23,355 nt of DNA, taken from positions 3,106 through 26,460 of the IMG/VR virus record IMGVR_UViG_3300008106_000025; one strand, given 5' to 3'. The DNA is from a virus. Below, piece after piece: positions 2,521-8,020 of the stretch (positions are counted from its first letter, which is position 1; each line of letters starts with the position of its first letter). Position numbers and translations under genes: made by a program. The notes under the pieces were generated by a model. That model was not told the DNA's origin. It did no database searches and was given only the letters and a program-made list of their open reading frames with translations.

Positions 2521-3140
2521 GCAGCACGTTACGTGGTTACGACAGGCATAAAAGCGACTATTACGTCACGCCTAAATGGATAATCAGGGAGCTGTTTGAC
2601 GCCCTCCCTGAACTGTTCGACGACATGGACGGGAGGCTGGCGTTAGACCCATGCGCAGGTGGCGGTTCAGTCAATCTCAGTGAGGTCTTCACCATGCCTT
2701 ACCCCGACGTGTTGGCGGAATACGGGTGGGATGACGTGATTACGCTGGACATAAGAGAAGATTCGCACGCGGACATCAAGGCGGATTTCCTGACCTGGAA
2801 CAACCCTGACAACCTGGACTTCGACCTGATTATCACGAACCCGCCATTCGCTATCGCCGAGGAAATAACCCGGAAGGCGTTGGAACTGGTGGATCAGGAG
2901 AGCGGCAAGGTCATCATGCTGCAACGATTGAACTGGCTGGGCAGTGCGGCGAGGGATGACTTCTTCACCGACTACCCACCCACCACCATCGTGATGCACG
3001 CGCGCCGCCCGTCTTTCGGCGGCACGTCGTCAACAGACAGCGTGGAGTACGCCCATTTCATCTGGGACAACACCGACCGCTCGGGCGTGACAAACTTTGT
3101 GCGTGTCCGCGCTGACAACTCTAGGAGTAAGACGGAGTGA
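2517..3140 (+). CDS. Orphan adenine-specific DNA methyltransferase
   Basis: A 207-residue Rossmann-fold methyltransferase starting at ATG 2517, with AAGGAG at 2503-2508 and an 8-base spacer. The SAM-binding motif I is DPCAGGGS (residues 44-51), motif II is LDIRED (77-82), and the catalytic motif IV is NPPF (108-111), which points to transfer of a methyl group to an exocyclic amino group (N6-adenine most likely). The N-terminal SDYYVTPKWIIREL is also typical of phage adenine methylases. No restriction enzyme is next to it and it is too short for a large target-recognition domain, so it is probably an anti-restriction or regulatory methylase. Target sequence unknown. Confidence 0.85.
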   Translation: MSSTLRGYDRHKSDYYVTPKWIIRELFDALPELFDDMDGRLALDPCAGGGSVNLSEVFTMPYPDVLAEYGWDDVITLDIREDSHADIKADFLTWNNPDNLDFDLIITNPPFAIAEEITRKALELVDQESGKVIMLQRLNWLGSAARDDFFTDYPPTTIVMHARRPSFGGTSSTDSVEYAHFIWDNTDRSGVTNFVRVRADNSRSKTE

Positions 3141-5107: not shown

Positions 5108-5127
5108 ATAATACTGCTTCCATTTAT

Positions 5128-5151
5128 GCGACCCTTCGGGGTCGCTTTTTT
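5128..5151 (+). terminator. Rho-independent terminator with UUCG loop
   Basis: A perfect 7-bp stem GCGACCC / GGGTCGC closed by a TTCG tetraloop and followed by six T. It sits between the ssDNA-binding gene and the polymerase gene, both on the + strand, so it ends or attenuates the upstream transcript. It also shows that a polymerase start inside the hairpin (ATG at 5126) is unlikely. Confidence 0.9.
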
Positions 5152-5158
5152 CTTATCA

Positions 5159-8020
5159 ATGAAAATCATGACTACCCTTCACCTCGACTTTGAAACCTAC
5201 AGCGCCGCTGACTTGCCCGTTGTTGGGCTGGATAATTACGCCAGCGACCCGACAACGGGCGTGCATTGTGTCGCGTGGTGTTTCGGTGATGGTCAGGTGC
5301 AGCTCATCGGCGCGTCCTCGCAAGGTTGGCCGCAGCTACCCGACGAGATAGCGACCCACGTTCGCAACGGCGGCACGGTCGTCGCGCACAACGCGGCCTT
5401 TGAGTTGGCGATATGGAATAAAGTGTGCGCCCCCAAATACGGTTGGCCGATCCTCAGCCCCAAGCAAATGCGCTGCACAATGGCGCAAGCCTACGCCATG
5501 TCGTTGCCAGGTAGCCTGGAAAAAGCGGCAGCGGCGCTCGGCATTCAGCAGAACAAAGATATGGTCGGCGCCCGCGTGATGATGCAGCTGGCCAGACCAA
5601 AACCCGACGGCACTTTTTGGACGGCGGAAGACGTGCCTGAAAAATTCCAACGCCTTTACGATTACTGTAAGTCGGACGTCGAGGTAGAACGAGCCATCGA
5701 CAACCGCATGATGCGGCTCTCCGAACAGGAGCAGCACGTCTGGGTTCTTGACCAGTTGATAAACCAACGCGGCATTCGCGTTGACCTGCCCGCCATTCAG
5801 AAAGCCATCGCCATGGTGGAACAAGAGAGGGCGCGGCTCGACAAGGAGATGCTGTGCACCACGGGCGGCGTCGTCGGCAAGTGTTCGGAAGTTCAACTGC
5901 TGGTGAAGTGGATACGCACGCAGGGCGTGGAGATTAAAGGACTGGCCAAAGCCGACGTTCTCGATGCGCTCACGGGCGAGCTGCCCCAACCTGTGCGCGA
6001 CGCCCTGGCGCTGAGGAAAGAGGCGGCCAAGTCTTCGACCGCCAAACTCTTGGCCATGAAGAACCGCGCCAGTCGTGACGGTCGTGTGCGCGGGTGCTTC
6101 CAGTATCACGGCGCATCGACAGGCCGTTGGGCACATCGCGGTATCCAGCCTGGCAATCTGCCGCGCCCACGCAAGCTGACCAACGACGATAATCATAACG
6201 CACGCCTTGTCTATCACATCAACGAACTGATAGCCGCAGGTGCGCGTGACGAGCTTGATATTTTGTACGGCCCAGTGATGGACGCTCTGGCTGATAGCGT
6301 GCGCGGTATGATTATTCCCAACCCAGGCTACGAGCTGGCGGCAGTGGACTTCAGCGCCATTGAAGCGCGGGTGTTGGCGTGGTTGGCGGGGCAGGAAAAC
6401 GTGCTCGACATCTTTCGCACGCACGGCAAGATTTACGAACACGCGGCCAGCGGTATCTATCGCAAGCCTATCGAAGCCGTCACCAAGTCGGAGCGTCAGA
6501 TAGGTAAGGTCGCCTGCTTTGGTGCGCAAACGCAAGTGGTGACGAACAACGGCATCAAAGCTATAATCGATGTATTACCGACTGATTTATTGTGGGACGG
6601 CGTTGAGTGGGTAAAGCATTGCGGGGTGGTAGAAAACGGTGTGCAACCGGTTGTTCGTGTGGCAGACACAGAAATGACGCCCGACCATTTGGTGTTGACG
6701 GGTCAGGATTGGACGCCAGCGCAAAGACTTATTTCCAACGCAAGTACCCTCTCCCTAGCATTGGCGACAGGTTCGGAGAACTTACCGTCCTCGGTCTCGA
6801 TAAGAGGCGCCGAAACGGACAAACCCGATATTTCATCAAGGTGCAATGCTCCTGCGGCGCAGATCCACACTTTGTTTATGAGGACAATCTGCGAAGGGGC
6901 GCGTCAACCCGGTGCGGCAGATGCGCCAAGAAGAAGGCGGCGCTTTATCGAACGACCCATTACCCATGCGCCAGCATCGTTGCCGATCAGAAGCACAGGA
7001 AGCGGCTGCTTACTCGCATATCCGCATGTATCAGTCGGTGCCACAATCCCGACAACAAGGGTTACATCCACTACGGGGCGCGGGGAATATCCGTGCACGA
7101 GCCGTGGAGGAAAGACCGAGTGCAATTCCTGGCCTACCTCATCACACTCCCAGGGTGGAACAACCCCGCGCTGGAGTTGGATCGCATCAATGTTGACGCA
7201 GGTTATGAACCTGGAAATCTTAGGTTCATTTCGCGCTCTGCGAACGCTTGCAACAAACGCAAAATCGGAGATTTGCAAGCCAGAATCAGCTGGCTTGAAG
7301 CCAGTCTTCGACATTGTGAATGCGGGGCCAAGGCACAGGTTCACCATCCTAACTAGCGATGGCCCGCTTATCGTCCACAACTGCCTTGCGCTAGGGTATG
7401 GCGGCGGTGTCGGCGCCTTCCAGTCCATGGCGCGCGCATATGGCGTGAAGGTCGAAGACGCGCTGGCCGACGATATTAAGCGTGCGTGGCGCGACAGCCA
7501 CCCCCACATCGTCAGTTACTGGTACGACCTTGAGCGCGCCGCCATTGCTGCTGTCGAGTTGGGCGGTGTGTGCGGAGCAGGTGCGCCTGGACGTGAGGTG
7601 CGATTCAAAAAGAATGGCAGCTTCCTTTGGTGCAAGCTGCCCTCTGGTCGCGTGCTTTGCTACCCGTACCCAGTCATCAAGGAGATTGAAACACCGTGGG
7701 GTGAAATGCGCGGCGCGCTGCATTTCATGTCGGTAAACGGTGTGACCAACAAGTGGGAAGAAACCAAAACCTACGGTGGGTCGTTGGCGGAGAACGTCAC
7801 ACAGGCGGTAGCCCGCGACCTGTTGGCCGAAGCAATTGTCCGTTTTGAGGAAGAAGGCATCAGCACCGTCATGCACTGTCATGACGAAATCGTTGCCGAA
7901 ATTAAATCAGGCTCGATAACATTGGAAGAAATTGAACGCATCATGTGCGTCTCACCGACTTGGGCGGGAGGGCTACCCCTCGCCGCCGAAGGTTACATTG
8001 CAACCCGTTACCGAAAATAG
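5159..8020 (+). CDS. Family A (T7-like) DNA polymerase interrupted by an intein
   Basis: A 953-codon frame; removing the 289-residue intein (residues 453-741) leaves a 664-residue polymerase, normal for T7-type enzymes. The 3'-5' exonuclease has Exo I DFET (D10, E12), Exo II HNAAFE, and Exo III YDYCKSD. Polymerase motif A is VDFSAIEAR (D397), motif B is split by the intein as GKVA / CLALGYGGG, and motif C is MHCHDE (H908, D909, E910). After splicing it would be the phage replicative polymerase. The start could be ATG 5159 or 5168 (MTTLHLDFETYS); neither has a clear Shine-Dalgarno sequence and a terminator lies directly upstream, so expression may need read-through or another promoter. Confidence 0.95.
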   Translation: MKIMTTLHLDFETYSAADLPVVGLDNYASDPTTGVHCVAWCFGDGQVQLIGASSQGWPQLPDEIATHVRNGGTVVAHNAAFELAIWNKVCAPKYGWPILSPKQMRCTMAQAYAMSLPGSLEKAAAALGIQQNKDMVGARVMMQLARPKPDGTFWTAEDVPEKFQRLYDYCKSDVEVERAIDNRMMRLSEQEQHVWVLDQLINQRGIRVDLPAIQKAIAMVEQERARLDKEMLCTTGGVVGKCSEVQLLVKWIRTQGVEIKGLAKADVLDALTGELPQPVRDALALRKEAAKSSTAKLLAMKNRASRDGRVRGCFQYHGASTGRWAHRGIQPGNLPRPRKLTNDDNHNARLVYHINELIAAGARDELDILYGPVMDALADSVRGMIIPNPGYELAAVDFSAIEARVLAWLAGQENVLDIFRTHGKIYEHAASGIYRKPIEAVTKSERQIGKVACFGAQTQVVTNNGIKAIIDVLPTDLLWDGVEWVKHCGVVENGVQPVVRVADTEMTPDHLVLTGQDWTPAQRLISNASTLSLALATGSENLPSSVSIRGAETDKPDISSRCNAPAAQIHTLFMRTICEGARQPGAADAPRRRRRFIERPITHAPASLPIRSTGSGCLLAYPHVSVGATIPTTRVTSTTGRGEYPCTSRGGKTECNSWPTSSHSQGGTTPRWSWIASMLTQVMNLEILGSFRALRTLATNAKSEICKPESAGLKPVFDIVNAGPRHRFTILTSDGPLIVHNCLALGYGGGVGAFQSMARAYGVKVEDALADDIKRAWRDSHPHIVSYWYDLERAAIAAVELGGVCGAGAPGREVRFKKNGSFLWCKLPSGRVLCYPYPVIKEIETPWGEMRGALHFMSVNGVTNKWEETKTYGGSLAENVTQAVARDLLAEAIVRFEEEGISTVMHCHDEIVAEIKSGSITLEEIERIMCVSPTWAGGLPLAAEGYIATRYRK
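6515..7381 (+). mobile_element. Intein in DNA polymerase motif B, with nested HNH gene
   Basis: An 867-bp in-frame insertion (289 codons). Splicing block A starts at Cys1 (CFGAQTQVVTNNG), followed by LLWDGVEWVKH and block B MTPDHLVLT with the TxxH signature. The C-terminal block F is VFDIVNAGPRHRF and block G is PLIVHN, followed by the +1 Cys of CLALGYGGG. All residues expected for class 1 splicing (Cys1, TxxH, penultimate His, Asn, Cys+1) are present. The insertion point is the highly conserved O-helix motif, typical of inteins. About 190 codons between blocks B and F in this frame are low-quality, Arg/Ser/Thr/Pro-rich sequence with no endonuclease motif; the endonuclease is encoded there in another frame. 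Confidence 0.93.
6607..7356 (+). CDS. HNH homing endonuclease encoded out of frame inside the intein
   Basis: Read in the frame one base behind the polymerase frame, this segment gives a convincing HNH endonuclease. There is an IGDRFGELTVLGL start (from about 6760), a zinc-binding pair (CSCG ... TRCGRC), then SRCHNPDNKGYIHYGARGI, EPW, and the core LELDRINVDAGYEPGNLRF, ending in a short coiled coil (LQARISWLEASL). This is the layout of free-standing phage HNH enzymes. The listed GTG at 6607 gives 249 residues, but the first ~50 and last ~15 codons are shadows of the intein splicing blocks. TTG at 6709 is another start, and no good ribosome binding site is seen for either. It would cut intein-free polymerase genes to spread the element. 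Expression route unknown. Confidence 0.8.
   Translation: MGKALRGGRKRCATGCSCGRHRNDARPFGVDGSGLDASAKTYFQRKYPLPSIGDRFGELTVLGLDKRRRNGQTRYFIKVQCSCGADPHFVYEDNLRRGASTRCGRCAKKKAALYRTTHYPCASIVADQKHRKRLLTRISACISRCHNPDNKGYIHYGARGISVHEPWRKDRVQFLAYLITLPGWNNPALELDRINVDAGYEPGNLRFISRSANACNKRKIGDLQARISWLEASLRHCECGAKAQVHHPN

Follow-up and report, generated by a model that had tools for sequence, protein, structure and literature searches.

Standard homing inteins carry their endonuclease in frame, and group I introns with intron-encoded HNH genes hold a separately translated HNH gene inside a splicing element. The closest published precedent for the locus described here is the ShiLan domain of mycobacteriophage methylases, an out-of-frame HNH endonuclease within an insertion that is open in the host frame; no splicing domain is detectable in this insertion, which is believed to be retained in the protein product (Arsenault, Gosselin, Gogarten 2025, PMC11855218). 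We analyzed a stretch of 23,355 nucleotides that forms part of the IMG/VR virus record IMGVR_UViG_3300008106_000025 (positions 3,106 to 26,460 of that record; hereafter, the window). It contains a family A DNA polymerase gene with an intein, inside which an original prediction, made from the letters alone, had placed a complete HNH endonuclease out of frame. This arrangement was confirmed: an open reading frame (ORF) at 6607–7356 lies in the −1 frame of a stop-free polymerase ORF. We consider it highly probable that the element is a mobile intein with its homing endonuclease encoded by a distinct gene that overlaps it.

The element shares with ShiLan an alternate-frame HNH gene, an insertion open in the host frame, a patchy, homing-like distribution and a proposed GTG start (PMC11855218). 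Unlike ShiLan, it possesses a full predicted Hint domain: the overprinted HNH gene is surrounded and overlapped by a complete intein, and the hosts are polymerase, helicase and terminase genes. With in-frame homing inteins, whether of the LAGLIDADG or the HNH type, it has in common the splicing blocks, insertion into a conserved active-site motif and extra DNA between blocks B and F, whereas the endonuclease here, instead of forming part of the intein polypeptide, is encoded by an overlapping gene that is apparently started separately. As in group I introns, a separately translated HNH gene is predicted inside the splicing element, but removal would take place at the protein level, the host frame is kept open, and no intron RNA was found. 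Among the open PMC papers searched, ShiLan was the only precedent, and none described an intein whose endonuclease lies out of frame.

The polymerase gene occupies positions 5126–8020 of the plus strand, on which all features described below also lie, and encodes 964 amino acids without a stop, exteins and intein included. Its N-extein part matches Pfam DNA_pol_A (E=2.7e-19), and both exteins match PHROG DNA polymerase families. The insertion site is polymerase motif B, where the joined exteins would read RQIGKVA followed by CLALGYGGG. The intein itself spans 6515–7381 (289 amino acids in the polymerase frame). As originally proposed, the polymerase frame carries the splicing blocks, with all class-1 residues present: Cys1 (6515–6517), the block B motif TPDH (residues 55–58), the terminal His-Asn (H288 and N289; 7376–7381) and Cys+1 (7382–7384). 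The claim that no stop interrupts the insert likewise held, whereas the accompanying statement that the frame returns in phase at block F was dropped, as the frame is open throughout and has nothing to return from. In a 45-row intein alignment, C1, T55, H58, H288 and N289 are invariant, and family alignments of the N-terminal splicing half show invariant C1, T6, V8, G13, W27, G29, W32, T55 and H58; these family alignments were built without rows from annotated phage records. The intein profile matches the solved inteins NEQ068 (E=6e-4) and Mtu RecA.

Structure prediction agreed with this assignment. The AlphaFold2 model of the polymerase-frame intein shows two confident Hint halves, residues 1–95 and 261–289, with a predicted local distance difference test (pLDDT) score of 96–98, separated by an essentially structureless stretch (residues 96–258). 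On the DNA, the N-terminal half with blocks A and B lies at 6515–6799 (pLDDT 96–98), and the C-terminal half with blocks F and G at 7295–7381 (pLDDT 96–97), where VFDIVNAGPRHRFTI leads to a terminal LIVHN and then Cys+1. Between them, the loop encoded by the HNH-gene DNA (6800–7294) has a pLDDT of about 32–50 and no predicted secondary structure. The top PDB matches of the model in Foldseek are inteins, with a probability of 0.9–1.0, though with E-values of about 0.01–0.1. The polymerase-frame insert is thus predicted to adopt a Hint fold, and its intact splicing residues suggest that it splices. We also observed that the "endonuclease" family phrog_93 aligns with the polymerase-frame translation of window positions 6569–7504, across the overlapped stretch; this family may contain out-of-frame translations of HNH genes.

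The HNH-family gene (6607–7356) encodes 249 amino acids from a GTG start to a stop at 7354–7356. These boundaries matched those originally given, with the correction that the 5' part reaches into the N-terminal splicing domain and that the stop falls inside the block F–G region. The product matches the PHROG HNH endonuclease family phrog_374 (E=1.5e-36; relatives, 1e-20 to 1e-61), and 19 residues are invariant across 55 aligned HNH-frame sequences. They include the zinc-finger cysteines of a CxC...CxxC pattern (HNH residues 81, 83, 103 and 106; 6847–6924) and, in the nuclease core YGARGI...W...LDRINVDAGYEPGN (residues 156–204; 7072–7218), Y156, R159, G160, W167, D192, R193, Y200 and N204. The predicted structure is confidently folded from about residue 40, and its matches in a viral structure library include phage HNH endonucleases.

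The same architecture recurs widely. IMG/VR inteins at 34–44% identity carry the HNH gene in the same −1 frame within an open polymerase frame, as do EBPR siphovirus 2, Pseudomonas phage MR14, Vibrio phage 97.13, Sodalis phage SO-1 and the Jerseyvirus phages examined. Searching with the window intein recovered 173 annotated phage records, 145 of them from Salmonella phages, and a profile of the N-terminal splicing half recovered 316 relatives in viral contigs, 80 of which were taken on, and 22 in prokaryote genomes. We classified 105 unique inteins from contig loci and phages by searching for HNH genes in all three forward frames. One HNH family, termed A and including the window, was found in 71 inteins and always in the −1 frame; a second, termed B, was found in 28, all of them with the gene in the +1 frame; APSE-1, Caulobacter phage GB2A and Firmicutes contigs belong here. 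Six had no HNH gene, most of these being mini-inteins of 135–158 amino acids. An intact in-frame HNH domain was found in none of the 105, the gene being out of frame in all 99 unique inteins that bear one, and the −1 frame is conserved in every relative of the window's family. A candidate in-frame HNH in L190 (same contig as L333) was rejected; it is a duplicated HNH protein, free-standing, whose single ORF contains two HNH-family units in tandem. In two related inteins, L121, from an Arsenophonus endosymbiont contig, and L079, the frames are broken, and the HNH match of L121 shifts from frame +1 to 0; both are probably decaying copies.

For an isolated case, the commonest expected cause of such a layout would be sequencing or assembly indels that displaced an in-frame HNH domain. 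Yet metagenomes, phage isolates and genome contigs together show the same frames at more than 100 loci, so that this explanation, already refuted by the relatives, was rejected and has next to no probability left.

Approaching the class from the HNH side yielded 239 loci; at 117 of them (101 unique) the HNH gene sits out of frame within a long ORF. Pfam-confirmed hosts include family A polymerases, ResIII/SF2 helicases (L303, L298 and L305), an SNF2 helicase (L156) and a terminase (L364). Three of the inteins with an out-of-frame HNH in these four helicases lie near or after helicase motif VI. The terminase large subunit, on an IMG/VR contig (L364:1006-3561), combines an intein-like N-terminal stretch with an out-of-frame (+1) HNH gene and represents a third kind of host gene. 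What began as one case has become, through the search of other phages, a widespread class that occupies either of two alternative frames and spans several host genes. Family B HNH proteins are close to free-standing phage HNH proteins (36–41% identity over almost the full length), and family A HNHs are almost always nested, as in 52 of 55 unique cases. A Hint tree built from 94 alignment columns sorts the inteins by HNH class, although the number of origins cannot be firmly counted from it. Separate invasions by HNH genes appear to underlie the two families. The earlier suggestion that a free HNH gene invaded a mini-intein gains support from the HNH-less mini-inteins of the same family and from the full-length free-standing relatives of the +1 family.

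Annotated genomes already contain members of this class. The HNH gene is unannotated in most of the records inspected; in Sodalis phage SO-1 (gp39, −1 frame) and APSE-1 (P46, +1 frame) the overlapping HNH is annotated as an intron and without explanation, respectively, and not as an overprinted intein. The gp39 region of SO-1 (L019, 4078–4836), labeled "type I self-splicing intron", looks like an overprinted intein. This label, together with the frequency of HNH genes in phage group I introns, favors the reading that the insert is an intron of group I or II and itself encodes the HNH gene. Rfam, however, identified no intron in the window or in eight relatives, nor in SO-1 or APSE-1; moreover, the splicing residues are invariant in the protein frame, a Hint fold is predicted, and selection keeps the polymerase frame open, which an intron would not need. 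We therefore rejected an intron identity as very improbable.

To assess whether both frames are maintained, we recoded the HNH part with synonymous codons and counted stops in the other frames. In the window, the polymerase frame was stop-free in only 0.16% of 5000 recodings (mean of 4.7 stops), and the third frame contained 9 stops versus 9.9 expected. Across the HNH domain, the polymerase frame contained 0 stops versus 264 expected at 48 family A loci and 0 versus 202 at 21 family B loci, whereas the third frame contained 620 versus 487 and 227 versus 180, respectively; the loci are related and the tests treat them as independent, so these numbers give direction and size and are not formal probabilities. 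Because third-frame stops are not depleted, there is no general lack of stops. A natural control is provided by 75 unique free-standing relatives of the +1-frame family, which average 16 stops in the equivalent frame, none of them open; in contrast, this frame is open in all 79 nested HNH loci. The recoding and the free-standing relatives together rule out chance openness arising from composition.

Substitutions between close relatives carried a similar signal. Within the overlap, the site that varies most is polymerase codon position 2 for family A and position 1 for family B; in both families this is the third HNH codon position. In family A, HNH-silent changes occurred at 2.05 times their neutral share and HNH-changing ones at about 0.6–0.7, and changes that place a stop in the polymerase frame (together with an HNH change) reached 0.17 times the neutral share. 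An entropy scan showed variation passing from the polymerase type to the HNH type between codons 66 and 82 and reverting about 25 codons before the intein end. Examining substitutions in both frames, as originally proposed, thus indicated purifying selection on the HNH frame and a polymerase frame kept mainly stop-free. Both frames are kept open by selection.

The boundary of HNH-frame openness points to where translation of the HNH protein begins. In family A, HNH-frame stops number 103 versus 70.5 expected in intein codons 0–29, and 3 versus 81.7 in codons 31–64. At this boundary, the Glu and Trp codons of the splicing motif DGVEWV together create an ATG or GTG: GTG at 6607 in the window and ATG in most relatives. 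The Glu codon is GAA, which makes the ATG, in 54 of 62 relatives, compared with 27.7 expected from local usage. The LWDGVEW codons (6590–6609) also provide a stretch resembling a Shine-Dalgarno (SD) sequence, with a mean anti-SD duplex of −6.9 kcal/mol (≤ −4 in 96% of loci). We also tried the proposal that this SD signal is selected beyond the amino-acid constraint and found it unsupported; the motif supplies the signal anyway. A possible second start is the TTG preceding the conserved Trp codon 65 (6709–6711), where relatives avoid CTG: the base before this codon is C 9 times versus 25.1 expected (68 relatives). The top structural match of the HNH-frame model, a protein of Salmonella phage LPSE1, is 247 amino acids long, as initiation at codon 30 would predict (compare L026). 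In L096 and L099, an HNH-frame stop lies just after codon 65 with a new start at the following ATG, which suggests that the start site can move. Because openness begins sharply at an ATG or GTG, with codon bias toward ATG, the HNH protein most likely arises by internal initiation, with codon 30 as the likeliest site.

Programmed ribosomal frameshifting on the polymerase message would instead yield a polymerase–intein–HNH fusion and no free HNH protein. Both frames are open over a long stretch, as such a fusion would need, and some relatives carry an SD-like AAGGAGG near codons 66–70; stretches of this kind can stimulate frameshifting. Against it stand the onset of openness exactly at the ATG-biased start codon and the presence of two HNH lineages in opposite frames (−1 and +1). 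Furthermore, inspection by eye of the relatives' start-region sequences, without a formal scan, revealed no conserved slippery heptamer. On balance, we regard frameshifting as improbable.

Besides the relatedness of the loci, several points weigh against an active endonuclease started separately within the intein. SD strength at the HNH start does not exceed what the intein amino acids impose. In the HNH frame, strong selection on amino acids becomes clear only past about codon 66–80; together with the SD result, this makes the exact start uncertain. Scans of the window protein against Pfam-A and NCBIfam gave no HNH match, and Pfam detects no HNH domain in family A; HNH_3 appeared in L011 only, at E=0.0027, below the cut-off. 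The PDB structure search with the HNH-frame model returned no nuclease. Finally, the core (LDRIN...GYEPGN) lacks an invariant His: LDRI stands where HNH proteins have a DH/HH pair, while D192, R193 and N204 are invariant. Because of this, the protein is best described as a putative nuclease. The atypical core and the PDB result would also suit a decaying intein passenger that is no longer translated or active. Such decay is nevertheless unlikely, even slightly more so than frameshifting: between close relatives, HNH-nonsynonymous changes are depleted and silent ones enriched, the invariant residues persist over all 55 sequences, and HNH-frame stops are nearly absent.

Salmonella phages offer a view of mobility. 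Of the 401 records matched by a Jerseyvirus polymerase-region query, 150 span 80% or more of it; many of the remaining ones align as two segments whose footprint is 1403 bases, exactly 897 short of the query. Phage skrot is intein-free and has an exact empty site, RQIGKA followed directly by CELGLGYEGG. Precise empty sites thus exist in Salmonella phages. Compared with the intein-bearing phages Ent1 or SETP3, skrot has 14–15 mismatches in the 50 nucleotides left of the site versus 1–3 on the right. Between L020:2401-3000 and L026:1901-2500 on one side and L133 on the other, divergence of intein-bearing from intein-free Jerseyvirus sequences is concentrated in the 50 nucleotides to the left, resembling a co-conversion tract. 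The empty sites and the one-sided flank divergence are compatible with homing and co-conversion, short of proof.

Taken together, these results suggest the following model. The polymerase frame encodes a class-1 mini-intein with a long and probably unstructured loop between its two splicing halves, and the same DNA, read one base back, encodes a complete HNH-family endonuclease. The whole ORF would be translated, and the intein, judging from its intact splicing residues, would excise itself and restore polymerase motif B. Ribosomes would also start internally at the ATG or GTG in DGVEWV, as the openness boundary and the codon bias indicate, and produce a separate HNH protein. This protein would cut intein-less motif B alleles, and repair would copy in the intein together with the HNH gene, consistent with precise presence or absence among near-identical phages. 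The arrangement probably originated with the out-of-frame insertion of a free-standing HNH gene into a mini-intein, after which selection kept both frames open. Somewhat less firmly than for this locus, though still with good confidence, we propose overprinted inteins as a general class: on at least two occasions HNH genes would have invaded mini-inteins out of frame, with both alternative frames used and with polymerase, helicase and terminase genes as hosts. In the −1 class, LWDGVEW would double as ribosome-binding site and HNH start, and splicing and homing would be the work of two proteins from one DNA.

An intein and its homing endonuclease are commonly presented as nested domains of a single polypeptide; here they are dual-coded with apparently separate products, as in group I introns. 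This accounts for the stretch of about 160 residues, without apparent meaning, that many annotated phage polymerases contain. The large and diverse phage family also provides a clean example of a long same-strand overlap selected in both alternative frames. In the Salmonella Jerseyvirus group, near-identical phages with and without the intein make homing directly testable. More broadly, the family suggests a route by which a free-standing endonuclease could capture a splicing element.

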